Below are positions 31,167 through 52,074 of a stretch of 64,000 bases of DNA, in pieces. The translations under genes and the position numbers were made by a program. The notes beneath the pieces were generated by a model that saw nothing but the letters and a program-made list of their open reading frames with translations, was not told the origin of the DNA and did no database searches. Position 1 is the stretch's first letter, and every line of letters begins with the position of its first letter. Where the stretch lies: positions 372,001 through 436,000 of the forward strand of contig NZ_VYXP01000003.1 in NCBI RefSeq assembly GCF_008725655.1, in the 5' to 3' direction. This DNA comes from Marinihelvus fidelis (lineage in GTDB: Bacteria > Pseudomonadota > Gammaproteobacteria > Xanthomonadales > SZUA-36).

Positions 31167-31214
31167 GCTAACTCCATTCCCGGGAAAGGGGTTTCCCGGC
31201 AAGGACATGGGCCA

Positions 31215-34310: not shown

Positions 34311-34311
34311 C

Positions 34312-35082
34312 ATGAGCGAACCAGCCCCCAAATCCCTGTCCGCCGACCTGGCCGAGCGTTTTGCGCAGGTCGAGCAGAATGAACACCTGCCGTTGTACCG
34401 CCAGGTGCAGAACCTGTTGCGTGACGCGATCAATGAGCGAAGCCTGAAGCCCGACGACGTCCTGCCGCCTGAAAGGGAACTGGCGCAGCTGTTTGGCGTG
34501 TCCCGAATCACCATCCGCAAGGCCATCGAGGGGCTGGTGAACGAGGATGTCCTGGGCACCCGGCAGGGTTCCGGCACCTTCGTGCGCCCGAAGGTGGAGA
34601 AGAACTTCGCCCAACTCAATTCCTTCTCCGAGGAAATGGCCGCCCGCGGTATGACCCCGGACAGCGTCTGGCTGAGCCGCGCCGAGGGCACGGTCTCCCC
34701 GGACGAATCAATGACGCTGCGAGCCAGCCCGGGCACGCGGGTTTTCCGCTTCAACCGTATTCGCCTGGCGGACGGCAACCCGATGTCGATCGAAAAAGCC
34801 GTGGTGTTGGCGGACTGCCTGCCGTCCATTACTGCGGTCGACCACTCGCTCTACGCGGCGCTGAAGAAGACCGGCAACCGTCCGGTGCGGGCGCTGCAGC
34901 GGCTGAAAGCGCTGCTGCTGAACGCCGAGCAAGCCAAGCTGCTGGGCGCACGCGAAGGCGATGCCGGCCTGCTGGCCGAGCGCATCGGCTTTAACGCCAA
35001 GGGGGCCGCCATCGAGTTCTCGCAAAGCTGGTACCGTGGCGACACCTATGACTTCGTGGCCGAACTGAGCCTGGGAGAATGA
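34312..35082 (+). CDS. GntR/HutC family regulator of GlcNAc use (NagR/NagQ-like)
   Basis: 256 residues. The winged helix at 27-95 (LPLYRQVQNLLRDAINERSLKPDDVLPPERELAQLFGVSRITIRKAIEGLVNEDVLGTRQGSGTFV) is followed by a UTRA effector domain from about 105 to 250. Regulators of this subfamily sense amino-sugar phosphates such as GlcN-6-P or GlcNAc-6-P. It is the first gene of a unit with NagB-II and NagA: its stop overlaps the next start by four bases. It probably represses both directions through the ATTGGT sites. Confidence 0.9.
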   Translation: MSEPAPKSLSADLAERFAQVEQNEHLPLYRQVQNLLRDAINERSLKPDDVLPPERELAQLFGVSRITIRKAIEGLVNEDVLGTRQGSGTFVRPKVEKNFAQLNSFSEEMAARGMTPDSVWLSRAEGTVSPDESMTLRASPGTRVFRFNRIRLADGNPMSIEKAVVLADCLPSITAVDHSLYAALKKTGNRPVRALQRLKALLLNAEQAKLLGAREGDAGLLAERIGFNAKGAAIEFSQSWYRGDTYDFVAELSLGE

Positions 35083-37789: not shown

Positions 37790-37855
37790 AGACCGCGCCA
37801 CGGCAACGTATGGCCGCAACATGGAATATGCTATGTTTGCGTCGCACCCATTTGG

Positions 37856-37870
37856 GGAATTGTTTATTCC
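37856..37870. promoter_or_regulatory. GAAT-N5-ATTC operator (murR promoter)
   Basis: GGAATTGTTTATTCC has 5-base arms and a 5-base spacer and ends directly before the regulator's ATG at 37871. Matching inverted repeats occur at 50846-50858 and 51957-51971. Because it covers the ribosome-binding region, binding here could block the start of its own operon. Confidence 0.6.
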
Positions 37871-38710
37871 ATGTCCTGCCTGGCCAAAATCCGTGCGTTC
37901 CAGGATGAACTGTCTCCGAACGAGAAGAAGATCGCTCGCTTCATCCTGGACAACCCGGCACTGATCCGAGACTACTCGTCGCAGAGCCTGGCCCACGCCG
38001 TGGGCGTCAGCCAGTCCAGCATCGTCAAGTTCAGCCAGAAACTGGGCTTCCGCGGTTTCACCGACCTGAAGCTCGCCATTCACGAGGCCTTCCTGACCGG
38101 CGACGGTCACGACAACGGTGACGGTAACGGCAACGGCGGCGTCGACGACGATGCCTCGGTGGCCGAACTGCTGTACCAGACCAAGCAGCAGGCACTGCTG
38201 AACACCATGCAGCTGAACGAGGAAAAGCAACTGGAGGCAGCGGTCGATATCCTGGAAAAAGCCCAGCGTACGCAGATTATCGCCATGGGCTGGAGCGCGC
38301 TGGCGGCGCGGCATTTCGCCTCCATGCTCAGCCAGATCGGGCGCGCCGTGATCGCCGAGACCGATGCCTATTTCCAGCTCTCCAGCGTCGCCACGCTGGG
38401 TAAGGGCGACGCCATTTTCCTGGTCTCGCTCACCGGCCAGGCGCCGCGTACGCTGGAGGCCGTCAAGAAGGCGCGCCGCGCCGGCGTCAAGGTGGTCACG
38501 CTGACCACCTACAGCGCCAACCCGTTCCGCTCGCTGGCCGACGTGCAGCTGTACTCGGTCAGCACGGCGGGCAAATACGAACTGCCGCAGATTGTCTCCA
38601 TGACCTCGCAGCAGTACATGATCGACCTGCTGTTCAAGCTGATTATTCGCCGCAACCGCAAGGCGAAAGAGTTACTGGCGCTGAACCGCCAGGATGTCGA
38701 AAGCTTCTAG
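37871..38710 (+). CDS. murR: MurR/RpiR family regulator
   Basis: 279 residues. The N-terminal RpiR helix-turn-helix (ELSPNEKKIARFILDNPALIRDYSSQSLAHAVGVSQSSIVKFSQKLGFRGFTDLKLAI, 13-72) is followed by a Gly/Asn/Asp linker (GDGHDNGDGNGNGGVDDD, 78-95) and a C-terminal SIS domain (IIAMGWSALAARHFASMLSQIG; FLVSLTGQAPRTLEAVKKARRAG). SIS domains sense sugar phosphates; MurR of E. coli responds to MurNAc-6-P. It leads a tightly packed operon of murein-peptide and D-amino-acid enzymes. The low-complexity linker is unusual for the family. Calling it MurR rests on context. Confidence 0.85.
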   Translation: MSCLAKIRAFQDELSPNEKKIARFILDNPALIRDYSSQSLAHAVGVSQSSIVKFSQKLGFRGFTDLKLAIHEAFLTGDGHDNGDGNGNGGVDDDASVAELLYQTKQQALLNTMQLNEEKQLEAAVDILEKAQRTQIIAMGWSALAARHFASMLSQIGRAVIAETDAYFQLSSVATLGKGDAIFLVSLTGQAPRTLEAVKKARRAGVKVVTLTTYSANPFRSLADVQLYSVSTAGKYELPQIVSMTSQQYMIDLLFKLIIRRNRKAKELLALNRQDVESF

Positions 38711-38750
38711 ACCGGGGACCACCCTCCCCGCACCCATGAACAGGACCGCC

Positions 38751-40367
38751 ATGACCCACAGAATTCTCCTGCCCGGCCTGCTATTGATGCTGGCCGGCTG
38801 CGCCACCGCGCAGGCGCCGGCAACCGTGCCAGCCGCTGAATCAGCACCCGCTGCGCCTGCCACGGCAAACATCGACATCGACCTGCTGGCTCGCTACGCC
38901 ATGGAGACCTTCGATGTCCCCGGCATGGCCGTGGGCGTCATCAAGGATGGCGAAGTGGTGTATGCCGCTGGCCACGGCCTCCGCGAGGCCGGGCAGCCGG
39001 GTGGGGTCAATACCGACACCCTGTTCCGCCTGGCCTCGGTAACCAAGGCCTTCACCGCCGCCGCGGCAGCGGTAATGGTCGACGATGGCAAGCTCAGCTG
39101 GGACGGCCCGGTCAACCAGGTGCTGCCGGCGCTGCGCATGAACGACCCCTGGGTCACGGCCAATATTTCCATGGTCGACCTGCTGGCCCACCGCAGCGGA
39201 CTGCCCGCCCATGCCGGCGACCTGCTGCTATGGCCGGTGCCCAACGCGTTCACCGAGGACGATATCGTCGCCGCGCTGCAGTACTTCCCGCTGGATGCCG
39301 GTTTCCGCAACGGCTACACCTACGACAACGTGCTCTACATCGTTGCCGCGCAGGCCATCGAGCAGGCCGGCGGCACGAGCTGGGGTGAAACGGTCGACAC
39401 GCGGCTGATGGCCCCACTGGGCCTGGACCGTTGCTTCGCCGGCGTGATCCCGGAAGAGCAGATGCGCAACCTGGCGGCTCCGCACGGCGGCCGCGGCAGC
39501 GACTGGAGCGTGATCGAGCGCAACCGCATTCCCCGCCAGCCCGACAAGTTCTCCCCTGCCGGCGGCATCGCCTGCAGCCTGGATGACATGCTCACCTGGG
39601 TGGGCACACAGCTGGCCGGCGGCGTGGGCCCGGACGGCACCGCGGTGTTCAGCCCGGCGGCGGCCCGGACCATGTGGCGGCCGCACAACCCGCTGGGCGT
39701 CAGCGGCGCCGAGAAGCAACTGCACGGCACCAACTTCAAGGCCTACGGCCTGGGCTGGCGGCTGCGCGATGTGCATGGCGTCATGGAGGTCTCGCACACC
39801 GGCTCGCTGGACGGCTGGCGCGCCCACGTGGTGATGGCGCCGGACCTGGGCCTGGGCATCGTCACGCTGCTGAACAGTTCCAGCAGCGCCGCCCGCAGCG
39901 CCGTCTCGACCCAGATTCTCTACAGCTACCTGGACGCACCCCCCATCGACTGGGTGGGCTGGTACCGTGACCAGCAATCATCCGGCGGTGGTTCAGCCGA
40001 ACAGGACGCCGAACCGGACCGCGGCCCGGTCCAGCCCGCGCGGCCGCTGGCACGCTACACCGGCCAGTATGCCGACCCATGGTTCGGCGACGTCGCCATC
40101 ACGCTGGACGAGGGCACGCTGCGGTTCAGCGCCGACAAGGCGCCCAAGTTCACCGGGCCGCTGCTGCACCATGACGGCGACCTGTTCCTGGCGCAATGGG
40201 ACGATCGCGAGGTCGGCATGGACGCCTGGGTGCGCTTCGTGTTCGACCCAGCGGGCCGGGTGACCGGCGTGCGCATGAACCGGCAGATGAACAGCCCTTC
40301 AGACCTGGACCACTTCCGCTTCTTGGACCTGGTCCCCGTCGATAACGCCAAGGAAGCCAACCGATGA
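38751..40367 (+). CDS. Serine hydrolase lipoprotein, class C beta-lactamase/D-peptidase family
   Basis: 538 residues. The lipobox LMLAGC (Cys17) is followed by an Ala/Pro linker, the catalytic domain with SxxK (Ser96, Lys99 in ASVTKAF), YxN (Tyr191-Asp-Asn193) and a HTG motif (SHTGSLDG), and a C-terminal DUF3471-type beta domain. The ATG at 38751 has AGGA five bases upstream; ATGs at 38736 and 38694 are less likely. Family members include AmpC, AmpH and D-aminopeptidases. In an operon with MpaA and racemases it is most likely a periplasmic murein DD-peptidase or D-aminopeptidase. Beta-lactamase activity is possible but not indicated. Confidence 0.85.
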   Translation: MTHRILLPGLLLMLAGCATAQAPATVPAAESAPAAPATANIDIDLLARYAMETFDVPGMAVGVIKDGEVVYAAGHGLREAGQPGGVNTDTLFRLASVTKAFTAAAAAVMVDDGKLSWDGPVNQVLPALRMNDPWVTANISMVDLLAHRSGLPAHAGDLLLWPVPNAFTEDDIVAALQYFPLDAGFRNGYTYDNVLYIVAAQAIEQAGGTSWGETVDTRLMAPLGLDRCFAGVIPEEQMRNLAAPHGGRGSDWSVIERNRIPRQPDKFSPAGGIACSLDDMLTWVGTQLAGGVGPDGTAVFSPAAARTMWRPHNPLGVSGAEKQLHGTNFKAYGLGWRLRDVHGVMEVSHTGSLDGWRAHVVMAPDLGLGIVTLLNSSSSAARSAVSTQILYSYLDAPPIDWVGWYRDQQSSGGGSAEQDAEPDRGPVQPARPLARYTGQYADPWFGDVAITLDEGTLRFSADKAPKFTGPLLHHDGDLFLAQWDDREVGMDAWVRFVFDPAGRVTGVRMNRQMNSPSDLDHFRFLDLVPVDNAKEANR

Positions 40368-41086
40368 GCAACCTGGTGCAGGTACCGCGTTCTGAGAAGG
40401 GGTTGCTGCGGCACCCCGCGCATCGCTACGGCACGTCTGAACGCGGCGTGGCGCTGGAATTCTTTGGCCCCGACGCGGGCCCCGTGGACCTGCTGGTCAT
40501 GGCATCGATGCACGGCGACGAGTGCGACTCCACCGTGGCCCTGTCCGAAGCCCTGCGAGTGGTGCCCAACGGCGCGCTGGCCAACCCGGTGATCCTGTCG
40601 GTGAACCCCGACGGCATCCTGCGCGGCACCCGTTGCAACGCCAATGGCGTGGACCTGAACCGCAACTGGCCGGCCAGCAACTGGTCACCGGAGCCGGTGC
40701 GCTATAAGGACCACGGCAAGACCGTTCAGGACATCGAGCTGAGCACCGGTGCCTCCGCCGGGTCGGAGGCGGAAACCCAACACCTGCTGGCACTGGTGGA
40801 ACGACTGCGCCCACGCGCCATCGTCAGCCTGCACGCACCGCTGGGCTGCATCGACGACCCCGACGACTCCGCGCTGGGCCGCTGGATTGCCGCGGAAACA
40901 GACCTGCCCCTGGTGCCCGACGTCGGCTACGCCACGCCCGGCTCCTTCGGCAGCTGGTGCGCCGAGAAAGGCATTCCCATCATCACCTGGGAACTACCTG
41001 CCGACCCGCTGCCGGCGGTCATCGACTCGCACGCGCCGGTGCTGTTCAAGCTGATCACCGGCACGTATATCGACGAGGTCGGCTGA
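40364..41086 (+). CDS. mpaA: Murein peptide amidase A-like M14 carboxypeptidase
   Basis: 240 residues, close to E. coli MpaA (242). M14 zinc ligands are His50 and Glu53 in SMHGDECDS and His157 in SLHAPLG. NPDGILRGTRCNANGVDLNRNWP supplies substrate contacts, and Glu210 in TWELP is the likely general base. It has no signal peptide. MpaA cleaves the gamma-D-Glu-mDAP bond of L-Ala-gamma-D-Glu-mDAP in the cytoplasm. Its product L-Ala-D-Glu is the substrate of the epimerase encoded at 48.4-49.5 kb. The start overlaps the hydrolase stop (ATGA), and glutamate racemase follows with no gap. Confidence 0.9.
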   Translation: MSNLVQVPRSEKGLLRHPAHRYGTSERGVALEFFGPDAGPVDLLVMASMHGDECDSTVALSEALRVVPNGALANPVILSVNPDGILRGTRCNANGVDLNRNWPASNWSPEPVRYKDHGKTVQDIELSTGASAGSEAETQHLLALVERLRPRAIVSLHAPLGCIDDPDDSALGRWIAAETDLPLVPDVGYATPGSFGSWCAEKGIPIITWELPADPLPAVIDSHAPVLFKLITGTYIDEVG

Positions 41087-41998
41087 GTGCGCATCGCCAT
41101 CACCGATTCCGGCGTGGGCGGCCTGTCGGTGTGCGCGGCGCTGGAAGCCGAGCTGGCGCGGCGCGGGCTGGGCGCCAACCTTGAACTGCTGTACCTGAAC
41201 GCCGCGCTGGAAGACGACTACGCCTACAACTCCATGCCGACCCGGCGCGAGCAGGTGGAAACCTTCGACGGTTTCCTCGACGCCGCTTTCAGCGATTACG
41301 CGCCCGACCTGCTGTTTATCGCCTGCAACACCCTGAGCGTGATGTTCGACGACCCGTATTTCGACCACCAGACGCGCGACCGCGTGGCCGGCATTGTCGA
41401 CACCGGTGTGGCCGAAATCCTGGCGGCGCTGGAGGACTGGCCGGATGCCGGCGTGGCCGTGTTCGCGACGCCGATCACGGTCGCCGGCAACACCTACCGC
41501 CGACGACTGGAGTCGGCTGGGGTGGCGCCATCGCGCATCGTCCAGCAGGCCTGTCCCGAGCTGCCGGATGCCATTTCCAACGACGTGACCGGCGAGCAGG
41601 CGGCACGCCTGCTGGAACAGTTCGTGCCGGACGCACTGGGACAGTTCGAACCGTCACCAACCCGGGTGCTCGCCGCGCTGGGCTGCACACATTTCGGCTA
41701 CCAGGCCGAGCGGTTCGCGCGGGAACTGGAACACCATGTGAACGCGGCCCGGGTGATTGACCCGAACGCGGCATCCGCAGGCGTGATCATCGATCGCGCG
41801 CTGGCCAAGGCGCCCGCCACCGCATCCCCCGGCGCGCCGCGGGTCACGGTCGTCAGCCGCTACACCATTCCCGACCGCCCGATGACCTCGCTGGCGAAGT
41901 ACCTGGGGGACGCCGCACCGCTTACACTGGCGGCCCTGGTCAACCATGAAACCCGGCCGGACTTTTTCGCCCGCAAACCACAGGACCTCTCCGCTTGA
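41087..41998 (+). CDS. murI: Glutamate racemase
   Basis: 303 residues starting with GTG directly after the mpaA stop. ITDSGVGGLS (Asp7, Ser8) and the two catalytic cysteines in FIACNTLS (Cys80) and ALGCTHFGY (Cys200) define the Asp/Glu racemase fold. It interconverts L- and D-glutamate. In this operon a catabolic role is likely: converting D-Glu freed from stem peptides to L-Glu. The sequence is unusual for a housekeeping MurI (for example LYLNAALEDDYAYNSMP in place of the usual YGDxARxPYG), which supports a specialised paralogue or a related racemase. Confidence 0.82.
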   Translation: MRIAITDSGVGGLSVCAALEAELARRGLGANLELLYLNAALEDDYAYNSMPTRREQVETFDGFLDAAFSDYAPDLLFIACNTLSVMFDDPYFDHQTRDRVAGIVDTGVAEILAALEDWPDAGVAVFATPITVAGNTYRRRLESAGVAPSRIVQQACPELPDAISNDVTGEQAARLLEQFVPDALGQFEPSPTRVLAALGCTHFGYQAERFARELEHHVNAARVIDPNAASAGVIIDRALAKAPATASPGAPRVTVVSRYTIPDRPMTSLAKYLGDAAPLTLAALVNHETRPDFFARKPQDLSA

Positions 41999-43425
41999 GC
42001 GACACGAAAACAACAAGAACGCCCGCCGACCCGATGCGGTCGTTCAGCGAAGACACTGACATGAAGCGCGACCTGGGCCTGCTCGAAGCGGTGTCCATCG
42101 TCGTCAACCGCATCATCGGCTCGGGCATCTTCCGCACGCCGGCGCCCATCATGGCGGCCGTGGCCAGCACCTCGCTGTTCGGCCTGGTGTGGGCGCTGGG
42201 CGGCATCGTTACCATCTTCGGCGCGGTGATTTACGCCGAGCTGGCGGCGATGATGCCGCGCTCCGGCGGGCCGTATGAATACCTGAAGATGTCCTACGGG
42301 CCGTTCTGGGCCTTTTTGCGCGGCTGGGCGATGTTTTTCGTGTCGGAAACCGCGTCGATTACCGCGGTGGCGCTGATCTTCGCCGAGTACCTGAGTGCCG
42401 CCTGGTTCCTGGTCAATGGCGTACACCTGGACAAGATGGTGATCTTCGGCGTCGCCTTCGGCACCATCTGGCTGCTGACGGCAATCAATATGTGGGGCGT
42501 GCAGTTCTCCGGCTGGGTGCAGAACATATTCAGCTTCGTCAAGATCGCCGCGGTGGGCAGCATTATCGGTATCGCCTTCACCAGCTGGAGCACCGGCAAC
42601 TGGGCCAACTTCATCACGCCGCTGTTCCCGGAATCATTCGGCGGCACGACCATCCTGGCCGTCGGCGCGGCGCTGCGCTACGCGTTCTTCGCCTTCAGCG
42701 GCTGGGAGGGCGCAACCTATATCGCCGAGGAAGTGAAAAACCCGCGCCGCAACCTGCCGCTGTCGCTGTTCATCGGCATTGGCGGCGTCATGCTGTTGTA
42801 CCTGGGCGCCAACGCCGCCTACCTGTTCCAGCTGCCGCCCGAGCGCATTGCCGAGGCGCCGTGGGTGGCCACCGAGGTGATGACGGTCGCCATGGGCGCC
42901 ACCGGCGGCATCCTGATCTCCGTCGCCGTGATGATCAACACCTTCGGCAACGTCAACACACAGATCCTGTGCAAGGCGCGCACCTGGCAGGCCATGGCCC
43001 GCGACGGCGTGTTCTTCGACTGGTTCGCGAAACTGCACCCGACCTACCGCACGCCCAACAACGCGCTGATCGGACAGGCCGGCTGGGCCACGGTGCTGCT
43101 GGTATTCGCGGTGCTGGCCGATAACTCTTACGAGACCATGATCGACTTCTTCTCGGCCACCTCGACCATCTTCAACATCCTGGTTTTCACATCAATCTGG
43201 GTCCTGCGCCGGAAATACCCGGACGCGCACCGGCCGTACCGCGCCTGGCTGTACCCGTGGAGCCTGGTCGGCATCCTGGCCATCTACTTCGCCTTCCTGG
43301 TCATCACGCTGATCACCGCCTTCGTGCCGTCGATCATCGGCCTGGGCCTGACGGCCACCGGCGCGGTGTACTACTTCTTCAAGGTAGGTTTCGGGCGCCG
43401 CGCGGCCGGGGCATCGGCGGACTGA
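41995..43425 (+). CDS. APC superfamily amino-acid/peptide permease
   Basis: 476 residues with about twelve membrane segments. The N-terminal GLLEAVSIVVNRIIGSGIFRTPAPIM is the APC consensus (substrate-binding GSGIF), and AAMMPRSGGPYEYLKMSYGP is the second conserved region. The TTG start at 41995 overlaps the racemase stop (TTGA); in-frame ATGs at 42034 and 42061 are alternatives. Its position between racemases suggests import of D/L-amino acids or small murein peptides, the role that YkfD plays in the Bacillus ykf operon. Substrate is inference. Confidence 0.85.
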   Translation: MSDTKTTRTPADPMRSFSEDTDMKRDLGLLEAVSIVVNRIIGSGIFRTPAPIMAAVASTSLFGLVWALGGIVTIFGAVIYAELAAMMPRSGGPYEYLKMSYGPFWAFLRGWAMFFVSETASITAVALIFAEYLSAAWFLVNGVHLDKMVIFGVAFGTIWLLTAINMWGVQFSGWVQNIFSFVKIAAVGSIIGIAFTSWSTGNWANFITPLFPESFGGTTILAVGAALRYAFFAFSGWEGATYIAEEVKNPRRNLPLSLFIGIGGVMLLYLGANAAYLFQLPPERIAEAPWVATEVMTVAMGATGGILISVAVMINTFGNVNTQILCKARTWQAMARDGVFFDWFAKLHPTYRTPNNALIGQAGWATVLLVFAVLADNSYETMIDFFSATSTIFNILVFTSIWVLRRKYPDAHRPYRAWLYPWSLVGILAIYFAFLVITLITAFVPSIIGLGLTATGAVYYFFKVGFGRRAAGASAD

Positions 43426-43435
43426 GGCCTGGGGT

Positions 43436-44515
43436 ATGAGACCGACGCGCGCGATCGTCCGGCTCGACAACATCGTCCATAACCTGGGCGTGGCCGCGCG
43501 GCTGGCGCCGGGCTCGAAGAACGTGCCGGTGATCAAGGCAAACGCCTACGGCCACGGCGCCGTGGAAGTGGCCCGCGCGCTGGCGCCGCATGCACCGGCA
43601 CTGGCCGTGGCCTTCATGGACGAGGCCGTCGCGCTGCGCGAGGCCGGCATCGATCACCCGCTGCTGGTGTTGCAGGGGCCTTCGGCGCGCAGCGACGTCG
43701 AACTGGCGGCCGCCGAAGGTTTCTGGCTGATGCTGCACCGACCCGGCCAGGTGGACTGGCTGGCCAACGTGCGACTGGCGCGGCCCGTAACGACATGGCT
43801 GAAGGTCGACACCGGCATGCACCGCCTGGGCCTAGCCGCCGACGAGATCCCACCCGCGCTGGCACGACTCGAATCACGGGGCAATGTGCACGGGGATGTA
43901 GTGCTCAGCACCCACCTGTCACGCGCCGATGAAACCGACCAGGCCTTCACCCGCGAGCAACTGGCGCTGTTCCAGTCACTGACGCTGCCGCACGAACGTC
44001 CACGCAGCATCGCCAACTCCGCGGGCATCCTGTTCTGGCCGGAGGCCCATGCCGAGTGGAACCGCCCCGGCTACATGCTCTATGGCCAGTGCCCCAGCAA
44101 CACGGCGTCGCCTTCCGGCCCGACCGCCGAACTGCGCGCGGCCATGACCATGCAATCGGCCATCATTTCCGTTCGCGACCTGGCGCCCGGCGAAGGCGTC
44201 GGTTACGGCCAGCGTTGGCGCGCCGAGCGACCATCACGCATTGGCACCGTCGCCATCGGTTACGGCGATGGCTACCCGCGCCATGCACCATCGGGAACGC
44301 CGGTGTGGGTGCGTGGGTGTCGCGCACCGCTGGTCGGTACGGTGTCCATGGACATGATCACGGTGGACCTGACCGACGTGGCGGGCGCCGATGTGGGCGA
44401 TGAGGTGGAACTCTGGGGCGAGCATGTGCCGGTCAACGAAGTGGCCGCCCTTTCTGGCACAATCGGCTACGAACTCCTGGCCGGACTGACCGGGCGCGTG
44501 CCCCTGACGACATGA
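43436..44515 (+). CDS. alr: Alanine racemase
   Basis: 359 residues of the PLP-dependent fold-III family. Lys34 in VIKANAYGHG binds PLP, Tyr257 in EGVGYGQRW is the opposite catalytic base, and NRPGYMLYG, IGYGDGYPR and VSMDMITVDLTD are conserved. It interconverts L- and D-alanine. Within this operon it should degrade D-Ala released by the LD- and DD-carboxypeptidases, comparable to catabolic DadX. It starts ten bases after the permease and overlaps the next gene by four bases. Confidence 0.93.
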   Translation: MRPTRAIVRLDNIVHNLGVAARLAPGSKNVPVIKANAYGHGAVEVARALAPHAPALAVAFMDEAVALREAGIDHPLLVLQGPSARSDVELAAAEGFWLMLHRPGQVDWLANVRLARPVTTWLKVDTGMHRLGLAADEIPPALARLESRGNVHGDVVLSTHLSRADETDQAFTREQLALFQSLTLPHERPRSIANSAGILFWPEAHAEWNRPGYMLYGQCPSNTASPSGPTAELRAAMTMQSAIISVRDLAPGEGVGYGQRWRAERPSRIGTVAIGYGDGYPRHAPSGTPVWVRGCRAPLVGTVSMDMITVDLTDVAGADVGDEVELWGEHVPVNEVAALSGTIGYELLAGLTGRVPLTT

Positions 44516-45588
44516 TCGATTCCCCGACCCTGCTGCTGGACCGCGATCGCGCGCTGCGCAACCTGCACCGTATGCAGGACCGCGCGCAGGCCGCGGGCGT
44601 AGGCTTCCGGCCGCACTTCAAGACCCACCAGTCGCGCGCGGTGGGCGAGTGGTACCGCGAGGCCGGCATCGACCGGATCACCGTGTCGTCCATCGCCATG
44701 GCAGAGTACTTTGCCGACGCCGGCTGGGACGACATCCTGGTCGCGTTCCCGCTGAACCCGCTGGCCCTGCCCCGTTACCAGGCGCTGGGGTCACGCGTCC
44801 GCCTGGCCACGCTGGTGGACAACCCGGCCGCGCTGGCGGTCATCGCCGACGGGCCGGAACCGACCATGGACCTGTATGTCGACATCGACGCGGGCTATGG
44901 CCGCACCGGTGTTCCGGCCGATCAGGCTGACCGTGTCGGGGCATTGATCGACACCATCGACGCCATGTCCGGGCTGACGTTCCGCGGTTTCTACTGTCAC
45001 CCCGGCGACACCTATCACCACGCCGATGCGGACGAGCGCGGCGCGATCCACACCCGCGCGACCGACGGCCTGCAGGCGCTGAAACAGCGCTTCGCTGCCC
45101 ATACCCCGCGGGTGCTGATGGGCGATACCCCGGGCTGCAGCACCGCGGATGGCTTTCCCGGCGTCGACGAGATCACGCCCGGCAACTTCATCTTCTACGA
45201 CCTGGTCCAGGCCAGCCTGGGCGCCTGCGACGAGGATGACATCGCCATCGCCATGGCCTGCCCGGTGGTTGGTCATTACCCGGACCGGGGCGAGATCGTC
45301 ATCCACGGCGGTGGTGTTCATTTCGCCAAAGATGTACTCGAGGTCGACGGTCGCCACGTGTTCGGCAAGCTGGCCGAGCGCGATGGCGATGGTTGGCGGA
45401 TCAGCCGCCAGGCGCTGTACCTGGACTCAATCTCGCAGGAGCACGGCATTATCCGTGTGCCGGCAGAGCGCTTGAACGAGTTTCGCGTGGGTGACGTGGT
45501 GATCGTGCTGCCCGTGCATAGCTGCATGACCGCGGACGCGATGGGCGGCTATGTCGATCTGAATGGCGTCGCAATCGATCATTTTTGA
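44512..45588 (+). CDS. D-serine dehydratase-like / D-threonine aldolase family PLP enzyme
   Basis: 358 residues. The alanine-racemase-type PLP barrel has Lys37 in RPHFKTHQS, and the C-terminal domain has VLPVHSCMTAD, whose His and Cys bind a metal in eukaryotic-type D-serine dehydratases. Such enzymes dehydrate D-serine or cleave D-3-hydroxy amino acids. As last gene of a D-amino-acid operon it may dispose of D-amino acids from modified stem peptides. The true substrate is open. The operon ends here; a hairpin at 45592-45621 lacks a T-run. Confidence 0.82.
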   Translation: MIDSPTLLLDRDRALRNLHRMQDRAQAAGVGFRPHFKTHQSRAVGEWYREAGIDRITVSSIAMAEYFADAGWDDILVAFPLNPLALPRYQALGSRVRLATLVDNPAALAVIADGPEPTMDLYVDIDAGYGRTGVPADQADRVGALIDTIDAMSGLTFRGFYCHPGDTYHHADADERGAIHTRATDGLQALKQRFAAHTPRVLMGDTPGCSTADGFPGVDEITPGNFIFYDLVQASLGACDEDDIAIAMACPVVGHYPDRGEIVIHGGGVHFAKDVLEVDGRHVFGKLAERDGDGWRISRQALYLDSISQEHGIIRVPAERLNEFRVGDVVIVLPVHSCMTADAMGGYVDLNGVAIDHF

Positions 45589-45680
45589 TCTCATCCAAAA
45601 GGGTATTAGGCTTTCTGGATGACATTACGGGTCGGACTTTTCCTACAGATTGCGCTCAGTCCGAAAGCTATAATCAGGTT

Positions 45681-45920
45681 ATGACCGATGCAAACACCAT
45701 CGACGCCATAGAAAAGGCCGCGCTGGAGCTGAAGCCCGACGCCCGGGCAAAACTGGCGCAACGCCTGGTTGAAAGCCTTGCTGCTCTACCTGAATCTGAA
45801 CTGGCCGAACTCTGGCTTAGGGAAGCCGAACGGCGTGACCAGGAACTTGACAGTGGAAATACGGCTGCGTTGCCCGGAATAAGCGTAATCGCTGACATCA
45901 GGTCCCGCTACGACAAGTAA
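45681..45920 (+). CDS. Addiction-module antitoxin component
   Basis: 79 residues: MTDANTIDAIEKAALELKPDARAKLAQRLVESLAALPESELAELWLREAERRDQEL..., ending GISVIADIRSRYDK. This is the short helical addiction-module family that pairs with RelE/ParE-type toxins. The ATG at 45681 (TCAGGTT upstream) is chosen; an in-frame ATC-rich extension to 45585 overlaps the previous gene. Its stop overlaps the toxin start (TAATG). The cassette is clearly more AT-rich than its neighbours, a sign of recent arrival. Confidence 0.75.
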   Translation: MTDANTIDAIEKAALELKPDARAKLAQRLVESLAALPESELAELWLREAERRDQELDSGNTAALPGISVIADIRSRYDK

Positions 45921-46226
45921 TGCTTTCGTACACGTTTCACCCTCTGGCCGCTATAGAACTGAACGCCGTTGTTGAATACTACGAAAACATCGCTCCCGGA
46001 AAAGGGTCTGGAGTTTTTGGCCGCCGTCGAATCCGGAATCGACCAGCTTTGCCAGTATCCTGAATCTGGTCCGGTCAAACGCGGCATGATTCGGTCACTG
46101 GTATTACCGCCTTCGGGTCGCTGGCCGTACTCACTTCATTACAGCATTAAGCCTGCCGAAATCCGCGTTCTGGCAGTCGCGCATCATCGTCGCCAACCCT
46201 TTTACTGGCTGGGAAAAAGGGTCTGA
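45920..46226 (+). pseudogene. RelE/ParE-type toxin gene with a frameshift
   Basis: From the ATG at 45920 the frame reads MLSYTFHPLAAIELNAVVEYYENIAPG, then leaves the family pattern. From 46002 the adjacent frame continues KGLEFLAAVESGIDQLCQYPESGPVKRGMIRSLVLP...YSLHYSIKPAEIRVLAVAHHRRQPFYW to a stop at 46224. Dropping one A from the AAAA run at 46000-46003 joins them into a normal ParE-like toxin of about 101 residues. It may be a real inactivating +1 insertion, a sequencing error in a short homopolymer, or slippage-controlled expression. Confidence 0.75.
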
Positions 46227-46229
46227 ACC

Positions 46230-46778
46230 TTAACCCAGCAGCCACTGGCACAGGTAAACGGCGCTGATGGCGCCGACGGCGTCGGCGAACAGGCCTGCCG
46301 GCACCGCGTGGCGGCTGCGCAGCACGCCCACCGAGCCGAAGTACACGGCCAGAACGTAAAACGTCGTTTCCGAGGAGCCGAACATCGTCGCGCCGATCTT
46401 GGCCTGCATGGAGTCGGCGCCGTATTCGTTGACGAGATCGGTCAGCAGGCCGAGTGAGCCGCTGCCGGACAGCGGGCGCATCAGCGCCAGCGGCAGGTTC
46501 TCGGGCGGGAAGCCAATGAAGTTCAGGAACGGCGCCAGCAGGTTCAGCAGCACATCCAGCGCGCCGGAGGCGCGAAACATGCCGACGGCCACCAGGATGG
46601 CCACCAGGTAAGGAATGATGCGTACGGCGATGGTGAAACCGTCCTTGGCACCCTCGACGAAGACCTCGTAGACCTTCACGCGGCGCGCGGCCATGGCGTA
46701 CAGCGGGATGCCGACGATCAGCGCCGGGATGATGTAGCGGGCCAGCTCGTTCAGGCCGTCGGTGAAGGTCTCGATCAT
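46230..46778 (-). CDS. spmB: SpmB-like nucleoside-recognition (Gate) membrane protein
   Basis: 182 residues with about five membrane segments. ARYIIPALIVGIPLYAMAA, AKDGFTIAVRIIPYLVAILVAVGMFRASG and the closing FGSSETTFYVLAVYFGSVGVLR...AGLFADAVGA match SpmB and the Gate domain. The family is known from Bacillus spore maturation; in Gram-negatives its role is undefined. It overlaps spmA by four bases. Placed after an LD-carboxypeptidase, epimerase and NlpC/P60 peptidase, it may form with SpmA a transporter for murein peptides or amino acids. That is inference. Confidence 0.85.
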   Translation of the reverse strand: MIETFTDGLNELARYIIPALIVGIPLYAMAARRVKVYEVFVEGAKDGFTIAVRIIPYLVAILVAVGMFRASGALDVLLNLLAPFLNFIGFPPENLPLALMRPLSGSGSLGLLTDLVNEYGADSMQAKIGATMFGSSETTFYVLAVYFGSVGVLRSRHAVPAGLFADAVGAISAVYLCQWLLG

Positions 46779-47425
46779 CGTTCGTCCCCTTCACCTTGCT
46801 CAACCGGCGCGCTTGCTTCGTCACCAGCTCCATCCTCGGGCGCCGGTGTCAGCCGGAACCACTTCGTGTTCTCCAGCACCTTGACGATAACGATCGCGGC
46901 GATGGTCGAGCAAAGCGTCGCCAGGATGGTGGTGATGAAGATATCGGCGGAAACCACGCCCATCAGCGCCACCACGGTGGCCGGCAGGATCAGTTGCACG
47001 CTGGAAGTGTTGATCGCCAGGAACATGACCATGGCGTTGCTGGCCGTTTTCTTGTCCGGGTTCAGCTCCTGTAGCTCCTCCATCGCCTTCAGGCCCAGCG
47101 GCGTGGCGGCGTTGCCCAGGCCCAGCATGTTCGCGGACATGTTCAGCACGATGGAACCGATGGCCGGGTGGTCGTCGGGCACGTCGGGGAACAGGCGGAT
47201 GGTGATCGGCCGCAGCAGTTTGGCGATGATGCGGATCAGGCCGGAGGCCTCGGCGATCTTCATGATGCCCAGCCACAGCGCCATGATGCCGACCAGGCCG
47301 ATGGCGATCTCCACCGACAGCTTGGCCATATCGATGGCCGCCTGGGTGACCTGGTCGATTCGACCGGTGAAGGTCCCGACCACGACGGAGATCAGGATCA
47401 TGCCCATCCAGATGTAGTTCAGCAT
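46775..47425 (-). CDS. spmA: SpmA-like nucleoside-recognition (Gate) membrane protein
   Basis: 216 residues. Hydrophobic segments include WMGMILISVVVGTFTGR, VEIAIGLVGIMALWLGIMKIAEASGL, IGSIVLNMSANMLGLGNAATPLGLKAMEELQ (family signature) and ATVVALMGVVSADIFITTILA. The C-terminal tail is acidic and cytoplasmic. SpmA and SpmB occur as an adjacent pair in Bacillus, where they affect spore core dehydration. It lies 27 bases after the LD-carboxypeptidase gene in the same operon. No sporulation genes are present here, so a different job is expected. Confidence 0.87.
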   Translation of the reverse strand: MLNYIWMGMILISVVVGTFTGRIDQVTQAAIDMAKLSVEIAIGLVGIMALWLGIMKIAEASGLIRIIAKLLRPITIRLFPDVPDDHPAIGSIVLNMSANMLGLGNAATPLGLKAMEELQELNPDKKTASNAMVMFLAINTSSVQLILPATVVALMGVVSADIFITTILATLCSTIAAIVIVKVLENTKWFRLTPAPEDGAGDEASAPVEQGEGDER

Positions 47426-47452
47426 GCGCTTACCTTGACAGTCCGCGCGAGA

Positions 47453-48388
47453 TTAACTGACTGGTGACTGCGGGATCCGGATGCGCGGGTCGTCCGGGTC
47501 CGCATGCAACTCTACCGTGTGCGCGACCGGAAGTGTGGCCTGGCAGTCGCCATGGCCGCAGGGGAAGTGACTGATAATGGGAATGCCCAGGTCGCCGAAC
47601 ACGTCCATGATGATCGCGTCCGTGTCCTTGCCAAACGACACGTCGCCGCCATCGTGCATCTCCAGCATCTCGCCCACCACCAGGCCGCGGATGCCATCCA
47701 GGCAGCCGGCAGAGCGCAGTTGCAGCAGCATCCGGTCGAAAGCGTGCAGCTTCTCGTCGATATCTTCGATGAACAGGATCGCGCCGTCGGTGCAGACCTG
47801 CCCTGGCGTGGCCAGGCGTTCGATCAGCAGTGAAAGGTTGCCGCCCCACAGCGGGCCGCTGGCCTCACCGGGTGCCAGGACACGGGCCTGGCACCCGGCG
47901 GTCGAACGAATCTCGACATTGTCTTCACCGGACAGCACGGCCAGCAGCGTGTCGATGTTGTAGGGCACGGTCTCGCGGCCGAACGTGGTGAGCATCGGCC
48001 CATGAAAGGTGACGAATTCACATTGCTGCGACACCGTGGTCAGCAGGCCGGTGATGTCGCTGAAGCCCACCAGGATCTTGGGGTTGACCGCGATCATGTC
48101 GTAATCCAGCAGCGGCAGCACCCGGTTGACGCCGTAGCCGCCGCGCGCGCAGATGATGGCGTCGATCGAAGGATCGGTGAACATCGCCATCAGGTCGGCC
48201 GCGCGCGCTTCCGGCGGACCGGCGTACTTGTCCTCGCGCAGGCCCACGTTATCGCCAAGAACGACATCGAAGCCGCGGTCGCGGAACTCGCCCACGGCAC
48301 GCGCCAGCCGGTCCGGCAGTGGCCAGTAGGCCGGGCTGACGATACCGATTCGGGCGCCGTCGCGCAGTCGCGCCGGGCGGAAAGCCAT
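47453..48388 (-). CDS. ldcA: LD-carboxypeptidase (YkfA/LdcA-like), cytoplasmic
   Basis: 311 residues, S66 family. ICARGGYGVNRVLPLLDYD precedes the nucleophile Ser110 in VGFSDITG; Glu208 lies in LFIEDIDE and His279 in FPCGHGD. It has no signal peptide. It removes the terminal D-Ala from murein tetrapeptides (L,D bond to mDAP). It follows the epimerase by 18 bases, giving the gene set ykfA-ykfB-ykfC known from Bacillus, here in reverse order. A second, exported homologue lies at 60948-62003. Confidence 0.92.
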   Translation of the reverse strand: MAFRPARLRDGARIGIVSPAYWPLPDRLARAVGEFRDRGFDVVLGDNVGLREDKYAGPPEARAADLMAMFTDPSIDAIICARGGYGVNRVLPLLDYDMIAVNPKILVGFSDITGLLTTVSQQCEFVTFHGPMLTTFGRETVPYNIDTLLAVLSGEDNVEIRSTAGCQARVLAPGEASGPLWGGNLSLLIERLATPGQVCTDGAILFIEDIDEKLHAFDRMLLQLRSAGCLDGIRGLVVGEMLEMHDGGDVSFGKDTDAIIMDVFGDLGIPIISHFPCGHGDCQATLPVAHTVELHADPDDPRIRIPQSPVS

Positions 48389-48406
48389 CAGGGCAACACC
48401 TTCATA

Positions 48407-49528
48407 TCAGCAGTGTCGCCCCGCGCCGTTGGCCACGTCCAGCGGTTCCAGGCCGTCGATGTTCTCGATGCCCAGGCCCGGCGCATCGGTGATACGGATT
48501 TCCGGCCCCTCGAAGCGCACACCGCTGGTCACCGGGTCGTATTTGCCCAGTGACGGCGTGTCCAGGTCGATCTTGGTGATGACCGACGACTTGGCCGCCG
48601 CCACGTGCGCGGCCGCGGCCACGCCGATGCTGGATTCCAGCATGCAGCCGATCATGCACTCGATGCCATGGATGCCGGCGATATCGGCAATCTTCACGGC
48701 GTTGGTGATGCCGCCCGTCTTCATCAGCTTGATATTGATGATGTCCGCGGCGCGATTACGAATCAGCTCGATCGCCTCGCGCGGCCCAAACGAGCTTTCA
48801 TCCGCCATCACCGGCGTATGCACGCGCTCGGTGACGTACTTCATGCCCTCGATGTCCTCGCCCAGCACCGGCTGCTCAACCAGCTCCAGCTGCACGCCGG
48901 ATTCCTCCAGTGCGCGGAGCACGGACACCGCCTGCTTGGGCGACCAGCCCTGGTTGGCGTCCAGCCGGATCAGCGCCTTGTCGGCGGTGGCGGTGTAGAT
49001 GGCCTTGATGCGCTCGATGTCCATCTCCGGGTCCTTGCCCACCTTCACTTTCAGGGTCTCGAAGCCGGCATCACAGGCGGCGACGGCGTCGTCCACCATC
49101 TTGTCGATGTAGTCCACGCTGATGGTGATATCGGTGACGATCACCGACTCGCCGCCGCCCAGCAGCTTATAGATCGGCGCGCCATACAGCTGCCCGAACA
49201 GGTCGTAGACGGCAATTTCCATGGCCGCCTTGGCGCTGTAGTTCTTGATGATCGACTTTTGGATGTGATCGGTGATCGCATTCAGGTTACCGACCTCCAT
49301 GCCGATGATGTTGGGCGCAATGACCTTATGAATGGCCTCGATAATCGAGCCATGCGTGTCGCCGGTGATCACCGCGGTGGCCGGCGCGCTGCCGTAACCG
49401 GTGCGGCCGTCGTCGGTATCGACCATGACCACGACATCGGCGATTTCATCCACCGTCCTCAGGGACGTCTTGAACGGCGTGGCCAGCGGCACCCGCAGCA
49501 TCCCGAAACGGACTCTTTCTATTTTCAT
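48407..49528 (-). CDS. L-Ala-D/L-Glu epimerase (YkfB/YcjG-like)
   Basis: 373 residues of the enolase superfamily. Lys160-Val-Lys162 (TLKVKVG) and Lys267 (NIKLMKTGG) are the paired acid/base residues. Asp190 (LDANQGW), Glu218 (VEQP) and Asp243 (MADESSFG) bind magnesium; DESSFG is typical of dipeptide epimerases. The enzyme converts L-Ala-D-Glu from stem peptides to L-Ala-L-Glu so ordinary peptidases can finish the job. Its start overlaps the NlpC/P60 stop by four bases. It lies between the peptidase that makes its substrate and the LD-carboxypeptidase. Confidence 0.92.
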   Translation of the reverse strand: MKIERVRFGMLRVPLATPFKTSLRTVDEIADVVVMVDTDDGRTGYGSAPATAVITGDTHGSIIEAIHKVIAPNIIGMEVGNLNAITDHIQKSIIKNYSAKAAMEIAVYDLFGQLYGAPIYKLLGGGESVIVTDITISVDYIDKMVDDAVAACDAGFETLKVKVGKDPEMDIERIKAIYTATADKALIRLDANQGWSPKQAVSVLRALEESGVQLELVEQPVLGEDIEGMKYVTERVHTPVMADESSFGPREAIELIRNRAADIINIKLMKTGGITNAVKIADIAGIHGIECMIGCMLESSIGVAAAAHVAAAKSSVITKIDLDTPSLGKYDPVTSGVRFEGPEIRITDAPGLGIENIDGLEPLDVANGAGRHC

Positions 49529-50796
49529 GACTCTCCAACCCCAGCTCTGATCGATTTGATCGCGTACATCTCGTCCAGGTAAGTGACGTCGCGCGACATA
49601 TGCAGCGAAACCAGCGGCGTGACCGACACGCCACTGAACTCGCGTTCGTGATACTGCCCCTCGTCATCCATCCAGCCGGCGCCGGCCAGGTCGTGGATCA
49701 CCCAGGGTTCGTTATCCACCAGGCCCAGGAACATCATGACATGGCCGGTGGAGTACAGCAGGTCGCCGACATCGGCGCCGCGGATATGTTCGAGTTTCTC
49801 GGCGACGGTGGCGTCTTCGGCGAAGCGCGTGTTGATGCCGATGGGGCTGTGGCCCTGCTGCGCCGAGTTGCGCGGCAACACGAAGCCCATGGCCCGGTAG
49901 ACCTCGGACACCAGCCCTGTGCAGTCGCGGGCATTGCGTGAATGGCCCCAGCCATAGGGCTCACCCAGGAACCGAAACGCCAGCTCGACCAGGTGCCGCC
50001 GCGTGTACGGCAGCCAACCGCGGCGCACACCCTCGGTCGCAGGCAGGAAGGCATCGGCGAAAGCCAGCCCGCCCGCGGAGTCAGCCACCGGCAGGCGGAC
50101 CGGCCATCGGCCTGCCCCTTCTTCGCCCCCCTGGCAAATTGGCAGGCTGGCGCCCATTTCCAGCGCCAGGGCGCCACGATCGTGTTCGGGCTCGTTGAAT
50201 TGCGCATCGACAAAGGCCGCGGTCACCACCACCCGCTCCGGCGCGTCACGCCAGGCGAGCATGTCAGCCCGGTCGCCGGTCGCCAGCGAGCCGACAAGCA
50301 CCCACGCGGCATAATTATGTGACTGCACAAACAGCCACTGGCCATCCTGGCTTCGATGCAACACGGCGACCACGTCGCCGGGGAAAAGCGTGTTCTCCTG
50401 GAATCGGTCCAGGTGGCGGGTTTCCTCGTCGCGGAAAACAACATCGGCACTCGGCCAGGTGCGCATGTCGGCGCGAAGGTGGGCCATCGCGAACACCACG
50501 TCCACGGTGTCGTCCACGCCGCCAGGGTTGCATGCGGCTTGGTAGCCCTGCCAGTCCGCCTCGGTCACCTCGCTGCCGTCGGCGTGGCGCAGGGCCATAG
50601 CTGGCCGGCGACTGGTCGCCTCGATGCGTGCCTGCACGTCGGCCGCGGACAGTTGCCTGGAAAAGTGCGCCAGGTCGACCAGGCTGGGGTCACGGGCGTA
50701 AGCGTCGCGATTGAAGGCCTCAATCGCCTCGGGCGGCATCAGCACCGTGTCCGGCGCGCGGCATCGGTCGATCCAGAATTCCGGCGTCTGGCGCAT
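49525..50796 (-). CDS. NlpC/P60 gamma-D-Glu-mDAP endopeptidase, YkfC-like
   Basis: 423 residues. The N-terminal helical region (1-100) is followed by SH3-like modules (about 110-255, with FPGDVVAVLHRSQDGQWLFVQSHNYAAWV) and the C-terminal NlpC/P60 domain: Cys292 in NARDCTGLVSEV, His352 in STGHVMMFLG, and a third polar residue near His366. No signal peptide is evident, so it should act inside the cell on imported peptides. Bacillus YkfC has the same SH3 plus NlpC/P60 layout. The ATG at 50796 (MRQTPEFWIDRC) is chosen because the longer frame to 50886 would bury the operator at 50846-50858. It is first in the operon. Confidence 0.88.
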   Translation of the reverse strand: MRQTPEFWIDRCRAPDTVLMPPEAIEAFNRDAYARDPSLVDLAHFSRQLSAADVQARIEATSRRPAMALRHADGSEVTEADWQGYQAACNPGGVDDTVDVVFAMAHLRADMRTWPSADVVFRDEETRHLDRFQENTLFPGDVVAVLHRSQDGQWLFVQSHNYAAWVLVGSLATGDRADMLAWRDAPERVVVTAAFVDAQFNEPEHDRGALALEMGASLPICQGGEEGAGRWPVRLPVADSAGGLAFADAFLPATEGVRRGWLPYTRRHLVELAFRFLGEPYGWGHSRNARDCTGLVSEVYRAMGFVLPRNSAQQGHSPIGINTRFAEDATVAEKLEHIRGADVGDLLYSTGHVMMFLGLVDNEPWVIHDLAGAGWMDDEGQYHEREFSGVSVTPLVSLHMSRDVTYLDEMYAIKSIRAGVGES

Positions 50797-50845
50797 GTGC
50801 AGGGGTCCGTTGCGATGAAAGATTCGACCCGCCTTTGGCGCGCCT

Positions 50846-50858
50846 GAATAATTTATTC
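50846..50858. promoter_or_regulatory. GAAT-N5-ATTC operator (ykfC operon)
   Basis: GAATAATTTATTC is a perfect palindrome around a central T, 50 bases before the ykfC-like start at 50796. It shares arms and spacing with the sites before murR and between the amidase and receptor genes. Confidence 0.6.
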
Positions 50859-50910
50859 TATGAAGGGCGTCAGGCATCTGCAACAAGGCTCATCGCGGTA
50901 CCAGGGGCGC

Positions 50911-51900
50911 TCAGCCGGCGTCGGCCGGCGTAACGGGAACCGTGACCGGAACGACAGCAGGTTCCGGCACCAGCACAGGTTCAGGCTCGGGCGCCAACAG
51001 CGGTGCCAGGTCGTTCTCGTAATACTTCTCGATCAGCGCGTAGAGCACGGCCGCGGTAGCCGGGCTGTTCTGGCCAGTCACTTCCCAGGGCAGGAAATGC
51101 ATCTGGAAGGCGCTGATGACGTTACGGGTCTGCTCGTCATACTCGCCGGTCAGTTCGATTTCGTAGCCATAGGTCTCCAGCGCTTCCTGCATGCGGCCGA
51201 TGCCGGGCAGGTCCAAGCGGAAACGATCCCAGTAGCGGGCGACCGTGTCATCGTCATACCAGGCGCCGTAGCCCTGGGTATACAGCCACTGCCAGGGGAA
51301 TCGCGGGCCGGGGTCGATCTTGCGCTGCGGCGCCAGGTCCGAGTGGCCAATCACGTGAGTGGGTGGCACGTCCGGATGGCGTGACAGGATGCCCTCCAGC
51401 GTTTCCGCCACCAGCGCCATCTGCTCCTCGGCAAAGTCCGGGTAGAAGCAGATGCGCTCCGCGGCCCAGTCCGCCACGGTGGGCTCGGCCGGCTCAGTGT
51501 CATCCTGCGCCTCGTGGCAATGTGCCTGGTTGACGATCTCGATGCCCACGGACATGTTGTTCAGTTTCTTCATGCCCCGCCACGAGCCCACACCGGCATG
51601 CCAGGCCCGACGGTTCTCGTCCACCAGCTGGTAGACCTGCAGCTTCTCGCCCTCGTAGCTGTCGTCACCGGGCTCGGGAATCAGGTAGTGCGAGCTGACC
51701 GGGCGGCTGGTGCGCTTGGTCAGCACGTGCATGGAGTCGGCAAAATCGCTGACGGTGAAGTGAAGCACCACCACCGCCACCCGGCTGTCCTGGTTTTCCG
51801 ACTCGACCTGCACCGGGCCCGACGTCGACGCGCAACCGGCCAGCGCCAGCGCGGGAACCGCCAGTAACAGCAGGCGTCGGGGAGAAATCGTGTTGAACAT
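50911..51900 (-). CDS. amiD: N-acetylmuramoyl-L-alanine amidase lipoprotein, AmiD-like
   Basis: 329 residues. The lipobox ALALAGC (Cys23) marks an outer-membrane lipoprotein. The amidase_2 domain has the zinc His47 in VVVLHFTVSDF, NNMSVGIEIVNQ and GHSDLAPQRKIDPGPRFPW. A peptidoglycan-binding helix bundle follows (EYDEQTRNVISAFQMHF), then a Pro/Val/Glu-rich tail. It splits the bond between MurNAc and L-Ala, freeing stem peptides from glycan. The start at 51900 fits the signal peptide; a longer frame to 51957 would cover the operator there. It is divergent from the Oar-type receptor. Confidence 0.92.
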   Translation of the reverse strand: MFNTISPRRLLLLAVPALALAGCASTSGPVQVESENQDSRVAVVVLHFTVSDFADSMHVLTKRTSRPVSSHYLIPEPGDDSYEGEKLQVYQLVDENRRAWHAGVGSWRGMKKLNNMSVGIEIVNQAHCHEAQDDTEPAEPTVADWAAERICFYPDFAEEQMALVAETLEGILSRHPDVPPTHVIGHSDLAPQRKIDPGPRFPWQWLYTQGYGAWYDDDTVARYWDRFRLDLPGIGRMQEALETYGYEIELTGEYDEQTRNVISAFQMHFLPWEVTGQNSPATAAVLYALIEKYYENDLAPLLAPEPEPVLVPEPAVVPVTVPVTPADAG

Positions 51901-51956
51901 ATTAAGGCCCGTTTCAGCTACGCGTGAATCGTAGGTTCGATACGCATGTGAAATCA

Positions 51957-51971
51957 AGAATAAATAATTCT
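51957..51971. promoter_or_regulatory. GAAT-N5-ATTC operator (amidase/receptor divergent promoter)
   Basis: AGAATAAATAATTCT, extendable to 6-base arms (AAGAAT/ATTCTT, 51956-51972), lies in an AT-rich divergent promoter 57 bases before amiD and about 100 before the receptor gene. A second inverted repeat, ACGAAA-N10-TTTCGT (52005-52026), lies closer to the receptor. The first site matches the candidate MurR motif. Confidence 0.6.
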
Positions 51972-52074
51972 TTACATGAATTCACAATATGATATTTTAT
52001 TTTGACGAAAATATAACGAATTTCGTATCGGTTGTTTAACCACCATCACTCGGGGACGGACCATGAGGAGTAAC

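Follow-up and report, generated by a model that had tools for sequence, protein, structure and literature searches.

A conserved two-part GAAT-N5-ATTC operator in Marinihelvus fidelis that probably belongs to a peptide-linked regulator of the RpiR family

A stretch of 64,000 nt on contig NZ_VYXP01000003.1 of Marinihelvus fidelis (the window in what follows) holds genes for the use of muropeptides, and the inverted repeat GAAT-N5-ATTC recurs among them. Which protein recognises this repeat, and which genes would it control? A first-pass annotation of the window had assigned it to a MurR regulon. The explanation that fits our results best, and that we regard as probable, is that the repeats are parts of two-part operators of a peptide-specialised RpiR paralogue that would have three targets. 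This RpiR-type regulator (HTH_6 and SIS domains; 37871-38710, plus strand) is encoded directly behind one of the repeats, and Pfam, alignment, and tree results make it the likely owner of the operator.

GAAT-N5-ATTC is found three times in the window against an expectation of 0.37, and none of 100 shuffled windows reached three copies. Site 1 (core GAATTGTTTATTC, 37857-37869; 37856-37870 in the 15-bp form GGAAT-N5-ATTCC) ends one base before the ATG of rpiR at 37871. Site 2 (core GAATAATTTATTC, 50846-50858) is separated by 49 bases from the likely ATG of ykfC at 50796, and would be contained in an alternative ykfC open reading frame with a TTG start that reaches 50886. Site 3 (core GAATAAATAATTC, 51958-51970) lies 57 bases from the ATG of amiD (51900) and 92 bases from the ATG of a TonB-dependent receptor gene (52063). 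The 100 bp around sites 1, 2, and 3 have AT contents of 51, 46, and 70%, compared with 34% for the window. The first-pass annotation was therefore right that three copies with identical spacing stand in AT-rich DNA at promoter positions of peptide-handling genes, and these sites are conserved in relatives.

It had also proposed a scan of the whole genome (3,432,746 bases), and here the outcome depended on the spacer. With a free spacer the motif occurs at 21 places, compared with two for the reversed control, so this form alone is not specific; with an A/T-rich spacer (WNWWW) it occurs at four places, three of which are the sites of the locus. Outside the locus there are 18 free-spacer places, and in all 12 that were examined the spacer contains G or C. 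Of these 12, eight fall within open frames longer than 220 codons and four outside such frames; this measure separates coding from non-coding DNA poorly because the three real sites also lie in frames of 356-454 codons. Taken by themselves, the 21 free-spacer matches would suit the explanation that the three copies are chance palindromes. We rejected it as extremely improbable because no shuffle reached three copies, and because the site between amiD and the receptor gene is exact in each of the nine genomes, of 12 searched, that yielded the receptor.

The regulator was searched for in 101 genomes (E <= 1e-30) and is carried by 21, 11 of these in the same family as the window (f1). Within the genus, site 1 is exact in each of the four members found to carry the regulator, and site 2 in four of four members. 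Across the family, the site before rpiR is exact for six of the 11 regulators (window, G001, G002, G005, G008, and G024); G013 and G035 depart from it at a single base and G033 at two. An exact site in G036 is displaced by 365 bp, within the gap between rpiR and the epimerase gene. Exact sites are also present in the gap between ykfC and the S66 gene of G033 and G035, and between the epimerase and amiD genes of G013, G033, G034, and G035, where the gene order is different. The sites thus move largely together with the genes. The ykfC-epimerase-rpiR clusters of Lysobacter, Stenotrophomonas, Pseudoxanthomonas, and their kin (Lysobacterales type) have the same enzymes and a regulator of the same clade, and CAATAAWTTATTC is found in 21 of 24 of these loci, in most of them a few hundred bp ahead of ykfC. 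They differ from the window in that the regulator gene stands behind ykfC and the epimerase gene, and in a further changed SIS loop (S-x-S/T-G in 0 of 24).

The three sites described in the first-pass annotation are the strong halves of larger elements, and the weaker second half of each was overlooked. Counting mismatches over the eight palindrome bases, the weak partner of site 1 (GAATATGCTATGT, 37824-37836) lies 33 bp upstream, over a -10-like TATGCT, with two mismatches; it is the same in G001 and G002 and has three mismatches in G005. The weak partner of site 2 (CGATGAAAGATTC, 50813-50825) lies 33 bp nearer ykfC, also with two mismatches, as in three other genus members. The partner of site 3 (GAATCGTAGGTTC, 51926-51938) lies 32 bp nearer amiD with one mismatch; it is the same in G001, has three mismatches in G002, and is not found in G005. 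Because 32-33 bp corresponds to three helical turns, both palindromes of a pair would lie on one face of the DNA. When pairs are scored over 16 bases with at most two mismatches in total, the window contains exactly three at spacings of 31-33 bp, which are these sites, and nine over spacings of 14 to 120. A scan of the whole genome at spacings of 32 and 33 bp under the same limit gave one pair at 32 bp and two at 33 bp, all in the locus. In the same-genus genome G001, arrays of an 8-base unit, GATTCCCC, are found at contig ends (C2:4-72 and C4:1-69) and inside contigs, and they filled the 32-bp pair search of that genome with false pairs.

The same pitch is seen elsewhere. Among 35 hand-picked sites, which included the Lysobacterales and E. 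coli sites that first suggested the pitch, partner spacings peaked at 31, 32, and 33 bp (3, 7, and 10 cases, one site being counted twice), and every other spacing had at most four. A cleaner test used 72 loci of more distant regulators, with 53 sites merged into 37 groups by similar flanks. Nineteen of the 37 have a partner at 31-33 bp, compared with a maximum of four and a mean of 1.16 for other 3-bp windows. After removal of the nine Lysobacterales-type groups, all of which are partnered, 10 of 28 remain, compared with a maximum of four and a mean of 0.97, in a sample that retains some close relatives. Without deduplication, 29 of the 72 loci together hold 38 copies of the exact motif, and the control palindrome TAAG-N5-CTTA was found twice. 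We refer to GAAT-N5-ATTC pairs 31-33 bp apart as the MurR/YfhH operator code, which is a description proposed here and not an established family definition. Spacers vary within Pseudidiomarina: the peptide-type regulators L142, L143, L145, and L166 have TAATAAATTATTC upstream, near position 3941, and several murQ-type regulators have GAATAAAAAATTC; the sites of paralogues might thus be distinguishable in part by their spacers.

The protein that would bind these pairs belongs to the RpiR family (PF01418, 82.4 bits with a cut-off of 28.3; PF01380, 52.9 bits with a cut-off of 25). Its best NCBIfam model is that of E. coli YfhH (PRK11557, 182.3 bits, cut-off 355), followed by a score of 135.6 bits for the MurR model (PRK15482, cut-off 408), both below cut-off. 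The recognition helix, SQSS-I/V-VKF-S/A-QKLG with few changes, is common to the window regulator, its relatives, MurR, and YfhH. We rejected control of the HexR type since HexR, also a member of the RpiR family and 23% identical, differs in this helix in the alignment.

MurR and YfhH, which are 30% and 32% identical to the window regulator, allow the code to be followed into E. coli. MurR recognises a pair of neighbouring inverted repeats and is responsive to N-acetylmuramic acid 6-phosphate (MurNAc-6-P). It shares the RpiR fold and the near-identical helix with the window regulator, and differs in its targets (murR-murQ-murP) and in the R-x-A-Q loop described below, which the window regulator lacks; solved MurR structures are available (7en5, 7en6, and 7en7). 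The gap between murR and murQ contains two one-mismatch palindromes 32 bp apart (L106:4184-4228). Within 7 kb around murR there are 27 matches with up to two mismatches against 31 expected, including one exact match inside murQ, and only the spacing and the place therefore support this pair. Before yfhH there are two exact GAAT-N5-ATTC sites, again 32 bp apart (L107:2659-2703), and only three of 200 shuffles of the surrounding 8 kb had two or more matches. The shared code leads us to predict autoregulation of E. coli yfhH by a two-part operator. The only annotated murein gene in those 8 kb is mltF, and YfhH is annotated in K-12 as a putative regulator only. In the literature, YfhH appears in a list of E. 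coli regulators without a known function (PMC9308461), its SIS domain is described and its neighbourhood cited (PMC6055005), and Ishii 2009 is cited on murR autoregulation (PMC3105977); as far as consulted, these papers describe neither a regulator group of the peptide arm nor an operator for YfhH. A literature search that left most subscription papers outside its reach likewise returned no peptide-arm regulator of this kind and no YfhH operator.

Is the window regulator then a true MurR, that is, a repressor released by MurNAc-6-P which in this lineage controls peptide genes? This is rather unlikely, and the name given in the first-pass annotation is not supported. The helix and operator code are those of MurR, murQ-linked relatives carry the same motif, and a MurQ-like enzyme and a BadF-type kinase encoded in the locus would handle MurNAc-6-P. 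Against this stands the phylogeny: in a tree of 83 regulators (PMSF; L122 and L185 excluded), the window regulator falls in a clade of 50 rows with support of 100/99, whose neighbour genes are mostly ykfC and epimerase genes, LD-carboxypeptidase genes, or an alanine racemase gene with a gene for a beta-lactamase-fold protein. The murQ/NamZ/SSF-linked regulators of Microbulbifer and of Idiomarinaceae/Alteromonadaceae form two other supported clades, and the Rhizobiales-type regulators and E. coli MurR and YfhH also lie outside the 50-row clade; the place of E. coli MurR is unsure because of its long branch beside that of YfhH, a joining that was flagged. Pseudidiomarina CB1, insulisalsae, and aquimaris have both kinds of regulator in one genome, about 30 kb apart.

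The sensor domain also argues against a true MurR. We counted three signatures in 71 regulators that were hand-sorted by neighbour genes (EcYfhH, EcHexR, L122, L123, L125, L128, L147, L148, L150, L157, L162, L163, L181, and L185 were excluded). The 27 murQ-linked regulators have G.G.S in 27, S.[ST]G in 27, and R.AQ in 25. The corresponding counts are 0, 9, and 0 for the nine members of the window family, 0, 4, and 0 for six of Woeseiaceae type, 0, 0, and 0 for 24 of Lysobacterales type, and 5, 1, and 0 for the five peptide-type regulators of Pseudidiomarina/Rheinheimera. The G.G.S count is strict, and the window regulator (A-M-G-W-S) scored negative although the serine is present. The R-x-A-Q loop is thus missing in all 44 peptide-type regulators counted, and E. 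coli YfhH has C-x-A-Q there. The SIS loop of the window regulator retains Ser186 and Thr188, which favours the MurR alternative. In a preprint on the RpiR-type regulator SpNanR (PMC12713135), the triple change S179A/S181A/T184A abolished effector binding; on our own reading of a motif alignment, these three positions would correspond to Ser186, Thr188, and Ala191 of the window regulator, of which two are Ser/Thr. The window regulator may therefore still bind an anion. MurNAc-6-P is a doubtful ligand, an assignment that does not follow from the sequence, because the regulator belongs to a peptide-linked clade and the R-x-A-Q loop is absent.

The murQ gene of the window points in the same direction: no site with up to one mismatch (at least three A/T in the spacer) lies before it, nor before murQ or NamZ genes in two further loci of this family, L089 and L095. 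The one-mismatch site at 16849 of L095 is behind a second nagA, not before murQ or NamZ. The window regulator lies outside MurR proper on the three features tested, namely the MurR model, grouping with murQ-linked regulators, and a murQ gene under the same operator. The broader proposal of the first-pass annotation, one RpiR-type regulator with a shared operator, is supported, and we conclude that the repeat is very probably a conserved two-part operator of the neighbouring RpiR-type regulator and that its regulon very probably covers uptake and the peptide branch of muropeptide use.

Several observations weigh against this conclusion. For site 1 a partner of equal quality exists at -99, and for site 2 at -77 and -70; the partners at 33 bp are imperfect at two of eight bases; the pitch appears at no more than roughly half of the more distant sites; and for the amiD/receptor sites of g9 no partner with up to two mismatches was found at 31-33 bp. 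Conservation has gaps: immediately ahead of rpiR, G033 and G034 lack a site even when one mismatch is allowed, with none seen at all in G034, G024 has no site between ykfC and amiD, and G034 has none between ykfC and the S66 gene. Of seven Woeseiaceae-type regulators, only L120 is preceded within 500 bp by a site when one mismatch is allowed, and this site falls inside a neighbouring gene match. Among the genomes of family f1, a relaxed form of the motif occurs in 11 of 11 that carry the regulator and also in 11 of 28 that do not; co-occurrence over the 101 genomes is a weak control because some genomes hold many relaxed matches. Finally, two murQ/NamZ-linked regulators (L148 and L163) sit in the peptide clade on long branches, and L163 also has ykfC and epimerase genes, so the two kinds of regulator are not perfectly separated.

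How might a two-part operator act at the three targets? In the mechanism that we propose, each palindrome would be occupied by a regulator dimer, and two dimers would associate into a tetramer that spans a pair with a spacing of 32-33 bp. The putative ykfC promoter, read on the minus strand, has TTGCAG (TTGAAG in G002), 17 bp, and TAGAAT; its first box matches poorly, and a promoter scan did not report it. Site 2 covers the -10-like TAGAAT and its partner lies 33 bp downstream, an arrangement that by eye the genus members share. At rpiR, by eye, TATGCT lies under the weak half and the strong half borders on the start codon; the promoter scan found no promoter there. Site 3 abuts a -35-like TTTACA (51971-51976) of the receptor gene, with its partner directed to amiD. 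Judged from these positions, the geometry best fits repression of rpiR, ykfC, and amiD. Transcription would be repressed by covering the promoter and blocking the leader, most readably at ykfC, in the same way at rpiR, and perhaps at amiD, until a ligand on the SIS domain relieved it.

Two other explanations bear on this arrangement. The regulator could be an activator at the receptor promoter and a repressor elsewhere. The centre of site 3 near -41 of the predicted receptor start would suit an activator, which counts against uniform repression, and SpNanR, also RpiR-type, is reported to be an activator (PMC12713135). We regard this as unlikely given that the partner of site 3 lies towards amiD, as expected for repression of amiD, and that the receptor promoter is itself only a prediction. 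Alternatively, the overlap or contact of the sites with promoter-like boxes could mean that the repeats belong to another factor or to an A/T-rich promoter core. This is very unlikely, as the same code stands before rpiR-type genes in bacteria far from this lineage, among them yfhH of E. coli and, with a poorer match, murR.

On the favoured reading of a peptide-specialised paralogue, the first target would be the regulator's own operon, all of whose genes are on the plus strand. Directly behind rpiR lies a gene for a beta-lactamase-fold protein with DUF3471 (38736-40367, Pfam), followed by genes for the murein tripeptide amidase MpaA (40364-41086; NCBIfam equivalog, 241 bits, cut-off 157), a protein of the Asp/Glu racemase family (41087-41998, Pfam), an amino acid permease (41995-43425, Pfam), and an alanine racemase (43436-44515; TIGR00492, 335 bits, cut-off 168). 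The second would be the minus-strand operon of a YkfC-like NlpC/P60 endopeptidase (49525-50796; Pfam, start picked from the sequence), an L-Ala-D/L-Glu epimerase-like enolase (48407-49528; Pfam, below the NCBIfam cut-off), and an S66 LD-carboxypeptidase (47453-48388, Pfam), after which come two more small genes, one with a Gate domain. The third would be the gene for an AmiD-like N-acetylmuramoyl-L-alanine amidase (50911-51900, minus strand; Pfam, start picked from the sequence) with that for the Oar-type TonB-dependent receptor (52063-55047, plus strand; Pfam). An SSF transporter gene behind the receptor gene (55153-56610, plus strand; Pfam) is a possible further member, and a strong terminator-like hairpin (55088-55117) lies between the two.

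Does the same regulator reach the sugar genes? The upstream part of the locus encodes a GntR regulator, NagB-II-like and NagA enzymes, and phosphotransferase system (PTS) components. The GntR/UTRA regulator of these N-acetylglucosamine (GlcNAc) genes (34312-35082, plus strand; Pfam) is preceded by TTGGT tandem repeats (34164-34311), which we assign to it as a separate, NagQ-like regulator; NagQ sites are described as tandem repeats (PMC5343134). Thus a GntR/UTRA regulator and a tandem-repeat operator adjoin nagA/nagB, and both the protein family and the operator differ from those of the RpiR-type regulator. The first-pass annotation had correctly noted a different motif at the GlcNAc genes. 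Two other matches in the window to a loose TTGGT pattern, near 40360 and 61822, are G/C-spaced and were taken as chance. We rejected NagQ control of the peptide genes because A/T-rich TTGGT repeats stand at the GlcNAc genes only.

Beyond the SSF transporter gene follow genes for another NagA-like enzyme, a first NamZ, a MurQ-like SIS protein, a kinase of the BadF type, another S66 enzyme, and another NamZ. The genes at 57772-63324, which include those for both NamZ exo-muramidases, the MurQ-like and kinase-like genes (59023-60955), and the second S66 gene, have no preceding site even when one mismatch is allowed. The split into sugar and peptide arms suggested in the first-pass annotation is therefore upheld in part: the murQ and NamZ genes of the window, L089, and L095 lack a preceding site, but site 3 may serve the SSF transporter gene as well, despite the hairpin between, and the same motif is found near murQ-linked genes in other bacteria.

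Taken more widely, the regulator would be a paralogue dedicated to the peptide moiety of muropeptides, in which the MurR/YfhH DNA code was kept while the sensor drifted. We tentatively suggest, with confidence a little short of even, that MurR, YfhH, and the window regulator keep an old two-part code with a pitch of about 32 bp while their sensors diverge, and that here and in Lysobacterales the sensor responds to a peptidoglycan peptide or another non-phosphosugar, coupling outer-membrane uptake to peptide breakdown apart from the sugar arm. If so, several gammaproteobacterial groups would have a dedicated regulator for the peptide side of peptidoglycan recycling, its DNA code would be precise enough for a regulon to be read from sequence, YfhH would gain a testable operator, and a family of sugar-phosphate sensors may have switched the kind of ligand with its DNA code kept.

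Two further features of the window were observed. Behind the racemase genes downstream of rpiR there is an antitoxin-like gene (PF09720, 45585-46200), which a toxin partner may follow. At 26822-31208, a PTS EIIBC gene adjoins a gene for an EIIA-HPr-EI fusion.

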